Shown: positions 19,887 to 26,024 of the stretch, one piece after another
Numbering within the stretch: the first letter of the stretch is position 1
How the letters are laid out: every line of letters starts with the position of its first letter
Assembly: GCF_004421005.1 (NCBI RefSeq)
Contig: NZ_CP038026.1
Coordinates: 2,976,001 to 3,040,000 of the forward strand
Source of the DNA: Pseudoduganella plicata
GTDB taxonomy: Bacteria; Pseudomonadota; Gammaproteobacteria; Burkholderiales; Burkholderiaceae_D
Reading direction: 5' to 3'
Length of the DNA stretch: 64,000 nt
Notes under the pieces: generated by a model
Database searches by the model: none
What the model saw: the letters and a program-made list of their open reading frames with translations, nothing else
Told to the model about the DNA's origin: nothing
Position numbers and translations under genes: made by a program

Positions 19887-19971
19887 GCCGGGATGGCGGA
19901 ATAGGTAGACGCACGGGACTCAAAATCCCGCGCCGCAAGGCGTACCGGTTCGATTCCGGTTCCCGGCACCA
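19887..19971 (+). tRNA. tRNA-Leu (anticodon CAA)
   Basis: 85 nt including the encoded CCA. The acceptor stem GCCGGGA/TCCCGGC closes exactly. The D-arm has AATAGGTAGAC, and the anticodon stem CGGGA/TCCCG encloses the loop CTCAAAA with anticodon CAA (codon UUG). A long variable arm (CGCCGCAAGGCG) marks a class II tRNA, and the T-loop is GGTTCGATTCC. Its last 19 bases before the terminal A are repeated at 21474-21492. Confidence 0.97.
19952..19970. repeat. att-like direct repeat, tRNA-internal copy
   Basis: The 19-bp 3' part of tRNA-Leu (GATTCCGGTTCCCGGCACC) recurs exactly at 21474-21492 in the same orientation. This is the signature of tyrosine-recombinase integration into a tRNA 3' end. Confidence 0.8.
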
Positions 19972-19995
19972 CGCACCCTGCATCACCAAAGCTCA

Positions 19996-20030
19996 AAACC
20001 CGCATGTTCTCAAGACATGGCGGGTTTTTT
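19996..20030 (+). terminator. Terminator after tRNA-Leu
   Basis: AAACCCGC (19996-20003) pairs with GCGGG-TTT (20020-20027) through a long stem that also contains ATGT/ACAT. Six T follow. Confidence 0.75.
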
Positions 20031-20033
20031 GTT

Positions 20034-20709
20034 GCTTCGGCCGTGCCGAAGCAAGTTGCTGAAAGCATCGCGGATGCCCTTCGGACCTATTCGGCGATGC
20101 GTCGAGTTTGCACCCGTTATGACAACCGATTCCGGTGGGGAGATAGGATGGCCGAACAGTGGCGGCGGCAATGATGTCGGCGAGCAGCTGGATCGGCACA
20201 TCCCGAGCGCATCGTTAAACCCAAGCTTCAGCCGCCCCCTTTGTGTTCAGATACGACCTCAGGATGATTCGAATCCCGCTCGAGCTGTGGCAAGACGCGG
20301 CTGCCTACTTCCCCGTACGTCGACGTGGGCGGTGCCATCCAGGCGTACCATAACGCGGCATCGTAAGCGAAGCGAGTTCGCACACCGTTACCCGGCGGGG
20401 GGCAAACCCCGGGAGCCGGTGACCCCAGCTTTCCCGAGGGCTTTACAGGCCAATATCGACAACGCAGCCTGAAAACATAGGCGACGTCCGCGCTAGTCGG
20501 TCAACAGGGCCAGTAGCAAAGGAGCTAAGCCAGCTCTCAGCGCGCTGGAGTCGGATGTGTTCTGCTCGGTCCGGCCGGGAACAGCATCGCAATCAAGTAG
20601 TCAAGCTATTCCGGCGTGAGTGCATGACTCGGCCTCCACCAAAGTCGATGCGATCGATTCAATCGGCGATGGTGGCTAACCAGGTATTACGGCAGTGTGG
20701 AAGCAGTGA
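20034..20709. other. Gene-free stretch inside the island remnant, 676 bp
   Basis: Open frames are present in several frames (20034-20472 plus; to 20199 minus), but none has a ribosome-binding site, coherent codon use or recognisable motif. The composition looks like decayed coding DNA. Nothing else was identified. Confidence 0.5.
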
Positions 20710-21222
20710 TCAGACCTTTGCTTCCAGGCCCGGCGTTGCGGAACGCACGAGGAAAGCCTGCGTCAGTTGCGGCAGGTGGTCCAGCAGCCAGGCGGCCATC
20801 GCCTTTTCCTGCACGATGATCTGCTCGCAGGCCGCCTTCGTGGTGGCGTCGCCGGCCTGCTCTGCCGCGGCGATCAGCGCCGTGTAGCTGGCGATTTCCA
20901 GGTTCTCGAACACATAGCCGGCCATCGCGCCCTTGACCACTTCATCGCTCACCGTCATGCCGCCAACGGCCTGGCCGAATGCCATCAGCTTGCCGCCCAG
21001 GTCCTTGATAATCGAGTTGCTGACGCCCCGGCGCGCCATGGCCTCGTCGAGCAGGCCTTGCTGGCCGCGGGTTTCCTCGATGTGCTGGATGATACGGGCC
21101 TTCAGTTCGGGATAGTGCTCCAGGCGTTCGGCCTGCGCCGTCAGCATTTTTTCCGCCTGCTGTTCCATCGCGTGCGCATCACGCAGCCAGTCGTTAAGGT
21201 TTTCGTTCACATCTGTACTCAT
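20710..21222 (-). CDS. DUF892 (YciE/YciF) ferritin-like protein
   Basis: A 170-residue, mostly helical protein. It begins MSTDVNENLNDWLRDAHAMEQQAEKML and continues with YPELKARIIQHIEETRGQQ and YVFENLEIASYTALIAAAEQAGD. The regularly spaced Glu and His residues on these helices fit the ferritin-like fold of DUF892, whose E. coli members YciE and YciF are stress-linked. The biochemical role is unproven. GGAGGAAA sits just before ATG 21222, an excellent ribosome-binding site. It is the only intact gene in the island remnant next to tRNA-Leu, so it may be horizontally acquired cargo. Confidence 0.85.
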   Translation of the reverse strand: MSTDVNENLNDWLRDAHAMEQQAEKMLTAQAERLEHYPELKARIIQHIEETRGQQGLLDEAMARRGVSNSIIKDLGGKLMAFGQAVGGMTVSDEVVKGAMAGYVFENLEIASYTALIAAAEQAGDATTKAACEQIIVQEKAMAAWLLDHLPQLTQAFLVRSATPGLEAKV

Positions 21223-21635
21223 GGTTTCCTCCATTGGTGGTTGGTCGGGGGGAAACCGCATGGTAGCCGTACCCGTTTGGCTGATCTGTAAGGGCATGGC
21301 GCCGGGCCATGTAGGACCATGGCGCATCGAGTGTCCAGGGCGAACAAGGCTGGTTGAGCCCAACCTGAAGTTGGTCGGAAGTCGGGTAGCGTCAGAATTT
21401 GTTGGTAGATTTGTTGGTAGTTTTCGAAGTGATCCGAGACCCCTGCAAGAATGCGGCGCTCAACGCAAAAGATGATTCCGGTTCCCGGCACCTCGTTTGC
21501 CAGCGTCACACTGACCAACGTGCGATTTGCAAGTTGTCGTGCCACGGATACAGATGCTGTGCCATATTAGCCTGTTATCGATTTAATACCGAATCATGCT
21601 AAACTATATTTCCTTATTTACAACAAAGAATCGGC
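21223..21635. other. Intergenic region, 413 bp, with tandem 12-mers and att copy
   Basis: It contains the upstream region of the DUF892 gene, the direct repeats ATTTGTTGGTAG at 21397-21408 and 21409-21420, and the distal 19-bp att-like copy at 21474-21492. From about 21540 the DNA is AT-rich and probably carries the promoter of the following PEP-CTERM gene. No further gene was seen. Confidence 0.6.
21474..21492. repeat. att-like direct repeat, distal copy
   Basis: Exact 19-bp copy of the tRNA-Leu 3' end; flanking bases differ on both sides. It marks the far boundary of the remnant. Confidence 0.8.
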
Positions 21636-22370
21636 ATGAAACTTTTTGCAATGACTGGGTTGGCGTTGGCTATTTTTTCCGGAACCGCATTTGCCGCAGG
21701 CGGGACTGCACAGGCCGCATTAACTGTTTATCGCTACGAACTGATCGACCTCGATCCGAACGACAATATCACGCCATCTGTAAAATTTGAATATTCCGAT
21801 ATATGGGCAGAGGCCACCATATCGGGGCAGAGTGATATTGAATACATAGGCGAGGGGGTCGCATCCGCGTCATTGAGCGTGGCCGATGGGAGCGGCGCGG
21901 CCACCTCCTCTGACGATACGCATAGCGCCAGCATGCGTCTCGGCAGCGAGGGGGAGATTCGTGCAATCGGCAAGAGGGATAGCGAGTTCTATCTTAGCGC
22001 TAAAACCAGGATGGTCATTTGGGGCCGGGCTACCGTCGAGCTCGATGTAGGCACCCTTGCGCCTGACCAGTACGCCAGAGCGGTTGCGTACGCCCATGTC
22101 CATTCATTTGGTTCCAATGCGACCGACGACTATGGCCTCTCCCTTTTCAGCCCTACGGATGGTGGCACTGCAAGCCTGGATCAGACATTCGCCTTGGAGA
22201 TGGTCAACGAGGGCGACTACGACATGTACGCCTACCTGGAACACGGAGCCTACACTGAAGGCCATATCACCTCTCCGGTTCCCGAGCCCTCCACCTGGCT
22301 AATGCTGGGCGCTGGCCTCGCATTGACGGGCGCGATCGCTCGGCGCCGCCGCACCGCTGTAGAAAGCTGA
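21636..22370 (+). CDS. PEP-CTERM sorting-domain protein
   Basis: 244 residues. A signal peptide (MKLFAMTGLALAIFSGTAFA) is followed by a low-complexity, Ser/Ala/Asp-rich beta-type mature region, then the tripartite sorting signal PVPEPSTWLMLGAGLALTG and an Arg cluster (ARRRR). Such proteins are recognised by the EpsH/exosortase system, cleaved at the PEP motif and exported to the surface, commonly in exopolysaccharide-producing biofilm bacteria. No exosortase gene is in the window. The function of the mature part is unknown; the absence of cysteines fits the family. It lies just outside the island remnant. Confidence 0.9.
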   Translation: MKLFAMTGLALAIFSGTAFAAGGTAQAALTVYRYELIDLDPNDNITPSVKFEYSDIWAEATISGQSDIEYIGEGVASASLSVADGSGAATSSDDTHSASMRLGSEGEIRAIGKRDSEFYLSAKTRMVIWGRATVELDVGTLAPDQYARAVAYAHVHSFGSNATDDYGLSLFSPTDGGTASLDQTFALEMVNEGDYDMYAYLEHGAYTEGHITSPVPEPSTWLMLGAGLALTGAIARRRRTAVES

Positions 22371-22755
22371 GCAGCTCGCAATGGTCATTGTGCGTGCGCA
22401 TGGTGTGACGGACAGAACGTCCAGTTACACCAACGTCCCTGACGCTCGCTGGCAGTGCTTGGCGCATGGCCTGCCTTTAACTCGTCCGCAGACAGACGGC
22501 TTCCTTGACGAGCCCACCAGCTAGAACACGCCATCCCTGGTGCCGCTTTGCGATAACGCGGCACTTCATCGGCAGCTCTCCCATCTCCGCTATGCGCAGT
22601 GTTTCGTCATATCGACGCAGTCTCATGCACAACCTGCGATCCTACGACTCCGCACTGTTAAAGCGTGCCGCATAGTCGCTCCGCCTCCCCCGACGTCGAC
22701 AAGAAAAAAGCCGCAGGAACGCGGCTTTTACTTTTGAGAGCGCTGCCTCGGCCTA
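22371..22755. other. Intergenic region, 385 bp, between convergent PEP-CTERM genes
   Basis: No convincing gene. One bidirectional hairpin (22704-22735) lies near the right end. The remaining 330 bp show nothing recognisable. Confidence 0.5.
22704..22735. terminator. Bidirectional terminator
   Basis: AAAGCCGC (22707-22714), loop AGGAAC, GCGGCTTT (22721-22728), with A-run on one side and T-rich tail on the other; it serves either convergent gene. Confidence 0.75.
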
Positions 22756-23370
22756 TCAGACTGCCGCCTTACGCCGGCGTGCCACGGCCCCTGCCACCGC
22801 GAGACCGCCCAGGAGCATCGTCCAAGTCTGCGGTTCGGGCACTACTGCAACGGAAACATGGACCCAAGCGGGGGTGAAGTCGAAAAAATTACCATCTCCC
22901 GAGTAGCGTTTGCCATAGGAGCTGATGGCGTACACAGGTGATGCGATTACAAGGTCGAGAGGCTCTGCCCACAACACGTACGGTACATCGCCCGTCGGTT
23001 GCCATTCTGCATAAAGGCTGAATTCAGTCTGCATACCGACTTCCCTCAGGGTCATGCCTAACGACAACTCTCTGTTTCCGCCGTCTGCAAACCGTGCTAT
23101 AGCGTATGCGTCGCCGACTCCGACAGCAGAATCCCGGTAGGTGCCCACGCTGATGTCGAAGTTATAATTGCTTTCGGTGATAAAGTCCAGGCCGGTTTCC
23201 GTATCGTAGTGGGTCACCCAGTTCAGTTTTACCGGCGCGCCTGCTGCCTGGCTGCCCCAGGCGTCCGTCAGTACCCCTTCTGACTGGATCGTCAGCGTAG
23301 CAGGGGCCGCCAGCGCGGCTGTAGAGGATAAGGCGAGTGCAAAGGCCAATGGCAAGCATTTTATGCGCAT
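22756..23370 (-). CDS. PEP-CTERM sorting-domain protein
   Basis: 204 residues. Signal peptide (MRIKCLPLAFALALSSTAALA), then a beta-rich mature region (VTHYDTETGLDFITESNYNF, YSGDGNFFDFTPAWVHVSV), then the exosortase sorting signal VPEPQTWTMLLGGLAVAG and ARRRK. Expected to be exported and processed by an exosortase encoded elsewhere. ATG 23370 is preferred over the adjacent ATG 23373 because AAGGGA then has normal spacing. It is convergent with the other PEP-CTERM gene 21636-22370, but the mature parts show no obvious similarity, so it is not a simple duplicate. Confidence 0.9.
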   Translation of the reverse strand: MRIKCLPLAFALALSSTAALAAPATLTIQSEGVLTDAWGSQAAGAPVKLNWVTHYDTETGLDFITESNYNFDISVGTYRDSAVGVGDAYAIARFADGGNRELSLGMTLREVGMQTEFSLYAEWQPTGDVPYVLWAEPLDLVIASPVYAISSYGKRYSGDGNFFDFTPAWVHVSVAVVPEPQTWTMLLGGLAVAGAVARRRKAAV

Positions 23371-23486
23371 CATAATCCCTTCATAAGTTTTGGTTGTTAG
23401 TGATTGAGCGGACTATAGCGCATAGATAATAAAAATTCTTCAATTTAATGCAACTTATGCATAACGATGCTCGAGCTGACTTGCCA

Positions 23487-24272
23487 ATGACCGACCTGTT
23501 CCCCCGCTTCGCCACCGCTATCCGCACGGCCGACCTCGCCGCCATCGACCGCCACACGCTGATACCCGCCGCGTTCCTGCTCGAGCAGGACGGACCCTAT
23601 GCCGTCAACTACATCCCGTTCGAAGCCGTGAATCGCACTGCGCGGGTCGTCGTGGTCGGATTGACGCCGGGATTCATCCAATGGCGCAACGGTGTTGCGG
23701 AGGCGCAGCGCCAGTTGCTGGCCGGTGCCACGCAGGAGGACGCGCTGCTGGCAGCCAAGCGTTTTGGTGCGTTCAGCGGTCCGCTGCGTCCTAACCTGGT
23801 CGCGCTGCTCGATGCCATTGGCCTGCAAGAGTGGCTGGACGTGCCCAGCTGCGCCGTCCTGTTCGATACGCGGCCGGATCTATTGCACAGCACTTCGCTG
23901 TTGCGCCATCCCGTCAGCCGGCATGGCGTCAACTACAGCGGCACGCCGGCGCCGGTCTCCCAGCCGTTCCTGCGCCGGCAGATCGGGCAGTACTTCGCGC
24001 ACGAGGCGGCGGCGCTTGGCCATGCCATCTTCGTTCCCCTCGGGCCGGCGGTGGCCGAGGGACTGCGCTGGCTCGCCGATCAGGGCGCGCTGTCGCAGGA
24101 GCAGATTTTTGACGGCTTGCCGCATCCTTCCGGTGCCAATGCCGAACGGATCGCCTATTTCCTGGGCCGCAAGGAGCGCGGGACACTGTCCTCGCGAACC
24201 GATCCCGTGCGCCTCGACCTTGCCCGCGAAGAGCTGATCCGCAAGGTCGAACTGCTGCGTAGTCAAGGCTGA
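23487..24272 (+). CDS. Uracil-DNA-glycosylase-superfamily-like protein
   Basis: 261 residues. Two motifs recall the UDG superfamily: VVVVGLTPGFIQW after the first strand (position of the water-activating loop GxxPG) and GLPHPSGANAERIAYFLG near the C terminus (the HPSxxN leucine-loop region). Strands such as SCAVLFDTRP and HAIFVPLGPAVAEGL fit the alpha/beta fold. If the assignment holds it could excise a damaged base, but the catalytic residue is not certain and no repair partner adjoins. ATG 23487 is chosen because homologous content begins there; ATG 23448 and 23457 are possible earlier starts. The next gene overlaps its stop (TGATG). Confidence 0.55.
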   Translation: MTDLFPRFATAIRTADLAAIDRHTLIPAAFLLEQDGPYAVNYIPFEAVNRTARVVVVGLTPGFIQWRNGVAEAQRQLLAGATQEDALLAAKRFGAFSGPLRPNLVALLDAIGLQEWLDVPSCAVLFDTRPDLLHSTSLLRHPVSRHGVNYSGTPAPVSQPFLRRQIGQYFAHEAAALGHAIFVPLGPAVAEGLRWLADQGALSQEQIFDGLPHPSGANAERIAYFLGRKERGTLSSRTDPVRLDLAREELIRKVELLRSQG

Positions 24273-24490
24273 TGAACACTTTTCTGTATGCTGCTCTCGG
24301 ATTTACCCTCGCCACCGTGGTTGCATGGGGTGGGTTGCTCGTGTGGGCATTTATATTCCTGGACCGTCACGACAGCTATTGGGATCATGCGCCCGGCGCG
24401 GCCGAGACCTTCTTTGTTTGCTGGCTGCTGTCCGGGATCGTCGCTGCGTTCATCGCGGCCTGGATGAGCCGGACCAGGCGCTCGTCTTGA
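24272..24490 (+). CDS. Small two-helix membrane protein
   Basis: 72 residues with two clear hydrophobic helices (LYAALGFTLATVVAWGGLLVWAFIF and FFVCWLLSGIVAAFIAAWM) joined by a short charged loop (LDRHDSYWDHAPGAAE). It ends in a basic tail. No family was recognised. Its ATG overlaps the TGA of the glycosylase-like gene by one base, so it is translated from the same message, but a functional link is unproven. Confidence 0.65.
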   Translation: MNTFLYAALGFTLATVVAWGGLLVWAFIFLDRHDSYWDHAPGAAETFFVCWLLSGIVAAFIAAWMSRTRRSS

Positions 24491-24542
24491 CCACGCGGCG
24501 CTGCCACAGCTGGTCTTCAGGTCGCTGAACAGCCCAGCCGCT

Positions 24543-25076
24543 TCAATCAACCGCATCCGCCTCGGGCGGGTAGCCGATACGCAAACCCTCCACATGCGCA
24601 AACGACGTCAGCACGTGCGGCCGCGTGTTGCCCCGGTTGATGATGTGTTCCACGGGGATGCCACGCACGGTCAGCGCATCCGCCACCATCGAGCGGTGGC
24701 AGCGCCACGGCACGGCTTCCGCACACATCAATGCGCAGCGGCGATCAGTGGCCCGGACGATGACTTCGTCGACGCCGGCAAGGAACTCATCGGACTGCAT
24801 GTGGTCGGCATACCCCCGAAACGACTTGTTGCGCCAGCCGCTGTTGGGCGAATCCTTGCGCGCGTGGCGCAGGCCGCCCAGGGCACCGATGTATTCGTAA
24901 CCGATGCCCGCATCGGCCAGCGCAGGCGGCAGCAGGTCCTGCCCGAACTGGGGATTGTGGCGCGACTTCGGTACGGTGCGGATGTCGATCAGCAGCTCGA
25001 TGCGGTGCTCCGATAACAGACTGAGGAACTCCTCGATCGGCCGGTTCGAGTGGCCAATGGTGAATACGGTGGACAT
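24543..25076 (-). CDS. DUF488 family protein
   Basis: A 177-residue cytoplasmic protein of the DUF488 family. Landmarks are the N-terminal FTIGHSNRPIEEFLSLL, the strand LLIDIRTVPKSRHNPQFG, and CAEAVPWRCHRSMVADAL with the conserved Cys-Arg-His cluster. The family is widespread and structurally related to nuclease- or glycosylase-like folds, but no activity is established. It is convergent with the small membrane protein gene and ends about 50 bp from it. Confidence 0.85.
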   Translation of the reverse strand: MSTVFTIGHSNRPIEEFLSLLSEHRIELLIDIRTVPKSRHNPQFGQDLLPPALADAGIGYEYIGALGGLRHARKDSPNSGWRNKSFRGYADHMQSDEFLAGVDEVIVRATDRRCALMCAEAVPWRCHRSMVADALTVRGIPVEHIINRGNTRPHVLTSFAHVEGLRIGYPPEADAVD

Positions 25077-25218
25077 GACGCGTGGACGTGGTTGTCGGTG
25101 GCATTTATTCTCGCCTGGCTGTGGAAACGGTGGCGCCGCCTACTACGGTGAGAATGTACGCATTTTCGGACAAGATTTTCTGATAGCGTCTTCATTTCCA
25201 TCTGGAGGACCTGTGGCC

Positions 25219-25590
25219 ATGATCCCATGTGTGTTCCGTTACGCCCCCATCATCGCACTCGCGTGCGTCCATCCGATCGCTTCGTGTGCGACGAACGCGC
25301 CCGTGACCACCGTGACGCGGCTTGGCACGTCCATCATGGACGTCAGCTGCACGGTCGCTGCAGGTGGCAGATGTCACTATCTTTTCGTGACGTCGCTCTG
25401 CCAGGAAAAACTACTGCGCGACGGCACCAAGGAGCGGACGTGCCGCTATGACCAGGCGGTACCGCCGTTTCAGCTTCGTTCAGGCGAAAGGAAAACCGTA
25501 GGCGGTCTTCCCGCCGATTTCCTCTACACGATGAAGTTCGGTGCCGCGCCCACCATGGACGAGTGCATCCGCGCGCCGATCCCACACTAG
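25219..25590 (+). CDS. Small predicted lipoprotein, unknown function
   Basis: 123 residues. The N terminus MIPCVFRYAPIIALACVHP is hydrophobic and followed by a lipobox-like IASC, so lipidation at that Cys is likely. The mature part carries several cysteines (DVSCTVAAGGRCHYLF, TSLCQEKL, ERTCRYDQ, MDECIRAP) that could form disulfides in the periplasm. No family was recognised. GGAGG precedes ATG 25219 by 10 nt (GTG 25213 is an alternative start). Its stop codon lies in a CTAG that is also the stop of the convergent gene. Confidence 0.6.
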   Translation: MIPCVFRYAPIIALACVHPIASCATNAPVTTVTRLGTSIMDVSCTVAAGGRCHYLFVTSLCQEKLLRDGTKERTCRYDQAVPPFQLRSGERKTVGGLPADFLYTMKFGAAPTMDECIRAPIPH

Positions 25591-26024
25591 TCGGGCGGCG
25601 GTGGGTGTTCGCCGCCCCCCTCCTCCCGATGCGCCTTCAGCAGCGTATAGCCCGTCTCCCGATCCGGCAGCACACCCGCATGCACCAGCCGCGCGACAAT
25701 GCTGCCGTCCGTCCTTCCCAGCTGCACGGCGATCTGGCCGAGTGGCGTGCCCGCTTCGAACTGCCGCAGCAGCGTATCGACGTCGTCGCCCGACCACTTC
25801 TTGCCGACATTGGGCAACTCGACGCCGTTGCGCACGAACGGCGTCTTGCGTGGCCTCGCGGCGGACACCGCGGGTGGCGGCAACAAGGCATTGCGGGCGA
25901 GGAACAGCGCGCGGATGATTTCCGGTGCCGTGCAGATGTCCCCTTCGCCCAGCACTTCGCCGGTGCGCGGATCGACGCCAAGCGCCAGGTGTTCGATGAT
26001 CTGCGCGGCCTGCTGTGGTGTCAT
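25587..26024 (-). CDS. Unknown cytoplasmic protein with HTH-like segment
   Basis: 145 residues, no signal peptide or membrane segment. The first half (MTPQQAAQIIEHLALGVDPRTGEVL, APEIIRALFLARNALL) and a second-half segment (LLRQFEAGTPLGQIAVQLGRTDGSIVARLVHAG) suggest a helix-turn-helix of the resolvase/sigma4 kind, which would allow DNA binding. The tail is Pro/Gly-rich. No named family was recognised. GGAGG lies at the correct distance from ATG 26024. It is convergent with the lipoprotein gene, sharing the four bases CTAG as overlapping stop codons, and divergent from the riboswitch-controlled receptor gene. Confidence 0.6.
   Translation of the reverse strand: MTPQQAAQIIEHLALGVDPRTGEVLGEGDICTAPEIIRALFLARNALLPPPAVSAARPRKTPFVRNGVELPNVGKKWSGDDVDTLLRQFEAGTPLGQIAVQLGRTDGSIVARLVHAGVLPDRETGYTLLKAHREEGGGEHPPPPD

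Follow-up and report, generated by a model that had tools for sequence, protein, structure and literature searches.

The 1.5-kb stretch that follows tRNA-Leu(CAA) in the window (the whole 64,000-nucleotide stretch of DNA analyzed here) is very probably the decayed remnant of a tyrosine-integrase element of the P4/IntSXT kind that integrated at the 3′ end of this tRNA gene. As a scar it is of an ordinary kind, a decayed member of the known P4/IntSXT islands, and it is unusually well documented by its relatives. It retains att cores and capsid-gene debris, a full-size relative occupies the same tRNA gene in another genome of the genus, arm-like pairs recur at conserved distances, and the empty sites of two islands are found at this locus. 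In the history that we favor, an element encoding an integrase with an N-terminal Arm-DNA-bind_3 domain would have entered the 3′ end of tRNA-Leu(CAA) by site-specific recombination. The tRNA would have stayed intact, with a second copy of its tail left downstream as attR. Large deletions, in an order that we can only propose, would later have eliminated the integrase together with the left arm sites and the bulk of the cargo, so that the remainder would consist of a left end, two capsid shreds, an intact DUF892 gene, the right arm pair, and the attR core. In all likelihood the scar can no longer move. The features are as follows.

19887-19971, + strand: tRNA-Leu(CAA), the integration target, intact (ARAGORN; a matching tRNA at the equivalent place in 71 genus loci)
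19952-19970, + strand: proximal att core on the attL side, within the 3′ end of the tRNA; exact 19-bp repeat, 2 genome copies
19971-20038, + strand: left end carrying a terminator-like hairpin at 19990-20036; resembles the left end of the G014 island (88% identity over 65 bp), the hairpin being supported by folding
20039-20315, + strand: piece of a major capsid gene interrupted by frameshifts; 72% identical in DNA to the G014 island
20316-20426, + strand: end of the capsid gene and bases beyond; 86% DNA identity to the G014 island, with about 540 bp of the gene missing ahead of it
20427-20709, no strand: DNA without assignment; no match among the loci compared
20710-21222, − strand: DUF892 gene, intact, 170 aa (PF05974, E = 1.7e-46; dN 0.037 and dS 0.47 against G003)
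21397-21420, + strand: tandem 12-mers ATTTGTTGGTAG, right-hand putative arm sites; like the pair before the G014 distal core, with end co-variation and fixed distances
21474-21492, + strand: attR core, the displaced copy of the tRNA tail; exact repeat, with 21394-21495 matching the G014 island's right end at 73%
21493-25586, no strand: variable interval past the scar with two PEP-CTERM proteins (PF07589 in both) and other genes

The Repeated Core and a Full-Size Relative

The sole tRNA detected within the window is tRNA-Leu(CAA) at 19887-19971. The sequence-only reading had noticed that a 19-mer from the 3′ end of this gene recurs about 1.5 kb downstream in the same orientation, and this was confirmed. 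Copies of GATTCCGGTTCCCGGCACC lie at 19952-19970 and 21474-21492 on the same strand, 1,522 bp apart from start to start, and these two known sites are the only matches in the window when up to 3 mismatches are allowed. Shuffled windows searched at the same threshold gave a mean of 0.05 matches, and none of 100 reached two. The 19-mer is not found in many unrelated places, its count in the 5,887,622-bp genome being exactly two. An exact copy is present in 12 of the 74 genus genomes and occurs twice only in the window's own.

Taking these copies for att cores is supported by a larger island that lies between matching repeats at tRNA-Leu(CAA) in another genus genome (G014). A DNA search of the genus with 20036-25600, in which 4 candidate places were scored per genome, matched G014 in three pieces (20039-20315 at 72%, 20316-20426 at 86%, and 21394-21495 at 73%), all of which lie downstream of tRNA-Leu(CAA) in the order and orientation of the window. 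The G014 island measures 16.8 kb from the tRNA to the distal core. Its tyrosine integrase starts 165 bp past the tRNA, contains the domains PF13356 (Arm-DNA-bind_3), PF22022, and PF00589, and shows sequence relatedness to arm domains of solved structure (3ju0 and 3jtz/3rmp). Farther along are an AAA_25 ATPase with PHROG matches of the primase/helicase type and a capsid gene (L033:9856-10800; PF05065, E = 4.1e-49), and the right end consists of a TGTTGGTA arm pair followed by the core GATTCCGGTTCCCGCACCA. This island thus supplies what the sequence-only reading had proposed to look for, a tyrosine recombinase at tRNA-Leu with the tandem 12-mers near its att sites, and it bears out the idea of a minimal scar left by something larger. 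Since the identity is only 72-86%, the G014 island appears to be a relative of the window's former element and not that same element. Measured against it, the window lacks the whole segment that starts 67 bp after the tRNA and runs as far as the capsid gene, so that left arm sites and integrase are both gone. Two further losses are about 540 bp of capsid sequence and about 8.9 kb ahead of the right end, in place of which the window has 20427-21393.

The G014 island has several features of its own. One of its proteins (L033:1573-3012) matches ApeA_NTD1 (PF18862, E = 2e-24) and the PADLOC candidate PDC-S58 (E = 3.4e-9), so that this intact relative seems to carry a defense gene with an ApeA N-terminal domain. 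A 266-aa protein, which gave no match in Pfam or PHROGs, contains what we take to be a relaxase-like motif. Among the island frames that were searched (10 proteins against Pfam and 9 against PHROGs, a part of the total), the capsid is the sole head or packaging match. Homologues of this capsid with 42-47% identity occur in eight genus genomes. A lone capsid gene might mark a satellite. Seven neighborhoods of these homologues were retrieved and three checked (G047, G058, and G024), and in these three the homologues look like prophage genes because a gene for the terminase large subunit lies nearby; the G014 island itself may or may not be a satellite.

Content of the Remnant

The sequence-only reading had placed only a DUF892 gene and decayed DNA between the repeats. 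The DUF892 frame stands, and the featureless decay does not, since 20039-20426 is capsid-gene debris and 19990-20036 forms a hairpin. The debris at 20039-20315 corresponds to capsid residues 26-118 spread across three frames (E = 3.8e-23), and element genes are therefore present between the repeats as capsid fragments homologous to the G014 island. For 20427-20712 and 21254-21396, no match was found in the genus loci compared.

The hairpin at 19990-20036 was missed by a simple terminator scan and picked up by folding, with a z score of −3.96 and 1 of 200 shuffles equally good. In G014 a hairpin likewise follows the tRNA (z = −2.70), and another follows the distal core (z = −5.97). The window has no terminator-like fold after the attR core at 21492 (z = −0.21), which counts against reading the stretch as a scar. 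Hairpins resembling the one at 19990-20036 also trail the tRNA in genus genomes without an island, and the left end (19971-20038) could therefore be native. Given the missing fold after 21492 and these hairpins in island-free genomes, either the window's second terminator was lost by deletion or the terminator behind the tRNA is native. In the history proposed above, the left-hand terminator would have arrived with the element.

The DUF892 frame is open, with its ATG at 21222. The comparison with the G003 homologue (dN 0.037 against dS 0.47) points to purifying selection on this gene, and it may now serve the host. A DUF892 match is present in 11 of the 74 genus genomes, the window's included. 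The close homologues in G003 and G069 lie at another place, in chromosomal surroundings common to both, and the homology between G003 and the window breaks off about 31 bp upstream of the start codon on one side and where the gene ends on the other. DUF892 may be cargo of the element or a later arrival.

Putative Arm Sites

The tandem 12-mers ATTTGTTGGTAG reported earlier at 21397-21420 are indeed there, with a TGTTGGTA pair inside them at 21400-21419. Their resemblance to recombinase arm sites, already suggested in the sequence-only reading, is now supported by the pair in G014, by co-variation between the two ends of elements, and by fixed distances to tRNA and core. The integrase would bind this pair. 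The pair alone is modest evidence because 9 of 100 shuffles also yield one match to TGTTGGTA-N4-TGTTGGTA at up to 3 mismatches, as the window does. In the genome, TGTTGGTANNTNTGTTGGTA has 2 matches at up to 2 mismatches and is exact only in the window. The right-hand pair is present in the window and the left-hand sites are absent; in G014 an arm-like site abuts the start codon of the integrase.

The co-variation was seen in 8 two-ended elements. The left and right ends of their own element have 52 8-mers in common, a number that 47 of 40,320 re-pairings equaled or exceeded, and in a version with 7-mers 29 of 40,320 re-pairings were as good. The exception is G013, where the arm sequences of the two ends differ, against a simple rule of one element with one arm sequence. 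The spacing of the repeats was also scored. A loose direct-repeat test (7 of 8 bases, spacing 9-15, within 110 bp before the core) proved useless, with 873 of 2,220 background segments passing. A test for the exact 12-bp spacing in a 34-nt segment gave 8/8 at 6 of the 10 distal sites, 7/8 at G064, and 6/8 at G046 and G024; the background reached 8/8 in 15 of 7,400 segments and at least 7/8 in 178 of 7,400. G035 scored 2/8, its variant pair lying partly outside the 34-nt segment.

Beyond the genus, the motif TGTTGGTANNTTTGTTGGTA was used to scan genome contigs (at least 117 loci) and viral contigs (63 loci). Among the 124 sites listed for genome contigs, 33 have an integrase start no more than 300 bp away (3 for random positions) and 33 have a tRNA no more than 350 bp away (6 for random positions). 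For viral contigs, 19 of 77 sites are near an integrase start (random, 2) and 8 of 77 near a tRNA (random, 0). The majority of the sites beyond the genus have neither an integrase start nor a tRNA nearby, and these could belong to distal ends or to other elements, or match by chance. Orientation was tabulated for 38 of the 41 tRNA-near sites listed (33 plus 8, within 350 bp), the other three being outside the distance range. It is identical in all 38, and 26 of the 38, again among the matches listed, have their first base 112-114 nt past the 3′ end of the tRNA. As tRNA-Arg(CCT) accounts for 14 of the 38, these sites are not all independent. Among the listed sites without a nearby tRNA, 12 of 159 have a core resembling a tRNA tail within 110 bp, 10 of them at an offset of 58-59, against 1 of 159 in the control. 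Counted by hand, the offset from pair to core is 58 in G014 and 55 in the window. Two viral contigs (L339 and L346) contain an arm pair, a core like that of tRNA-Leu(CAA), a terminator-like hairpin (seen by eye), and an integrase consecutively. This row is what would be expected for an excised or tandem element, representing either the attP of related elements or a tandem junction. A simple rule for terminators in the interval from tRNA to arm pair picked out 10 of 39 sites beyond the genus and 32 of 780 mononucleotide shuffles, and on this comparison element-borne terminators are not shown to be a general feature.

On balance we incline to the view that TGTTGGTA-N4-TGTTGGTA is the arm-site code of one clade of tRNA-targeting integrases that is widespread in Proteobacteria. 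The code would be read with a ruler of about 113 nt past the tRNA and about 58 nt before the core, whichever tRNA is used, with a replacement tRNA terminator in some elements, and the code alone would locate scars that have no integrase. No description of the motif or the ruler was found in literature on the arm motif and the spacing of arms in tRNA islands, which is weak evidence of their absence from print. The scar by itself is ordinary genome decay. That arm sites remain recognizable after the integrase is lost offers a simple route to finding and counting lost islands, and it could serve to predict the arm sites of integrases for which no binding sites are known.

Recurrent Integration at tRNA-Leu(CAA)

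The locus was examined in 73 of the 74 genus genomes (the window, 71 other loci, and G043), G044 being left out because its locus is tRNA-Leu(UAA); loci L092, L093, L105, L112, L133, and L141 end at contig ends soon after the tRNA. An integrase or a fragment of one lies beside tRNA-Leu(CAA) at 12 of the 73 loci (G014, G046, G035, G006, G004, G009, G020, G013, G049, G025, G023, and G064). A distal core is present at no fewer than ten, at least in the window, G049, G064, G014, G035, G046, G006, G013, G024, and G020. The search for distal cores allowed up to 3 substitutions in 71 loci, and indels as well in 19 of these plus 3 more sequences; it extended mostly over about 18 kb, and a 4-edit match in G027 was left uncounted. 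The ten cores are a lower bound because the indel-tolerant search covered part of the loci and mostly about 18 kb of each. These observations show that tRNA-Leu(CAA) is a recurrent integration site in the genus.

Seven of the ten distal cores (G014, G035, G046, G006, G013, G020, and G024) lack one G of their own tRNA tail; the core is full in the window, G049, and G064. The distal core of G024, besides the one-G deletion, has C where the host tRNA has T. Together, the seven deletions and this C/T difference suggest that the displaced core is derived from the element and that the crossover falls near the very end of the tRNA. G024 has its distal core without an adjacent integrase, and G063 retains a left end with degenerate arm sites, also without an integrase, so the window is not the sole scar in the genus.

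Comparison of related genomes had been proposed as the way to find either a larger island or an empty site. The larger island turned up in G014, and the islands of G046 and G013 each have an empty counterpart in other genomes; no exact empty site matching the window itself was found. For the G046 island the empty site is in G072, where the DNA found 76 bp past the distal core continues from 57 bp after the tRNA (86% over 2.9 kb). For the G013 island it is in G026 and G029, where the DNA found 288 bp past the distal core continues from 9 bp after the tRNA (about 89-93%). The G013 locus (L096) probably contains tandem elements. The arm sequences of its two ends differ, and the DNA past its distal core resembles the left ends of other elements.

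Such reuse bears on a reading that we consider unlikely but worth weighing, in which the attR end on one side and the capsid debris or left end on the other come from separate elements that entered the same tRNA in tandem or successively before deletions joined them. Integrase sequence at 12 of 73 loci and the mixed ends of G013 fit this reading, as does an attR in the window that lacks the one-G deletion of the G014 distal core. Against it, all three matched pieces of the window occur in one G014 island with their order and orientation kept.

Mobility and Other Readings

A single decayed element remains our preferred reading, and the search for an integrase bears on whether its remnant could still move. 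There is no integrase gene downstream of the tRNA in the window, and a search for integrases of the P4/IntSXT kind gave 0 matches in the window's genome (G000), whereas 6 of 6 control genomes matched. The sequence-only reading had offered, as its second option, a small element mobilized in trans with a ferritin-like protein as cargo. We regard as very improbable such a nonautonomous element with working att sites, moved by a foreign integrase with DUF892 aboard. The two identical 19-bp cores, the intact right arm pair, and an intact and conserved DUF892 gene would all suit it. However, the left arm sites of the G014 island are missing from the window, no helper integrase was detected in the genome by a search that was positive in all six controls, and the close DUF892 homologues sit elsewhere. 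There is also no second copy of the unit, the core being present only twice in the genome and never twice in another of the 74 genus genomes examined.

Recombination between short repeats could, without any integrase, have copied the tRNA tail downstream, and PMC5426353 reports a RecA-independent event of this sort in a small E. coli island with short direct repeats. It would leave unexplained the arm pair, the conserved distances, and why the right end is homologous to that of an island with an integrase, and we give it hardly any weight. A chance repeat beside unrelated decayed DNA has only the shortness of the repeat in its favor and was rejected as next to impossible, given two copies in 5.9 Mb, no shuffle of 100 with two matches, the capsid debris, and the homologous right end.

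Relation to Known Systems

The integrase domain PF13356 is the former DUF4102. PMC8138268 assigns integrases with an N-terminal DUF4102 to the IntSXT subgroup, and the P4 cluster of this subgroup inserts downstream of tRNA genes. The islands of this cluster resemble our case in insertion at a tRNA 3′ end, in the domain make-up of the relatives' integrases, and in an arm domain related to 3ju0 and 3jtz/3rmp, and they differ in that the window, having neither integrase nor left arm sites, holds only a scar. For the KplE1 prophage, with intS at argW, PMC2951348 reports integrase promoters that overlap attL and the arm sites. Its arm-type sites are located ahead of the integrase start, on the side of the tRNA, as in G014, but the motif shared by the KplE1 arm sites is TAAA according to that paper and TGTTGGTA or a variant here. 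The islands in tRNA genes called by Islander (PMC4383910) are likewise marked at their ends by a whole tRNA and a displaced tDNA fragment; those calls rest on an integrase-bearing island, whereas the scar has no integrase. The small recombinase-less island of E. coli in PMC5426353 shares with the window a unit bounded by short direct repeats without a recombinase. Mobility is reported there, and nothing in the window suggests it.

The Right Flank

In the genus search, with 4 candidate places scored per genome, the DNA from just after 21492 to about 21726 had no match, and among the relatives' loci examined none has the window's right flank beside a tRNA, which counts against the scar reading. 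The gene at 25587 is common to relatives. In G018 its matched part begins 119 bp past the tRNA, but in G008 and G011 the distance is 9.9 and 12.5 kb, respectively. Within the variable interval, 24543-25076 encodes a 177-aa protein, presumably a DUF488 protein, that matches the PADLOC candidates PDC-M45B (E = 6.9e-35) and PDC-M19A (E = 3.3e-19). Homologues of this protein are found in the equivalent interval of G008 and G011.
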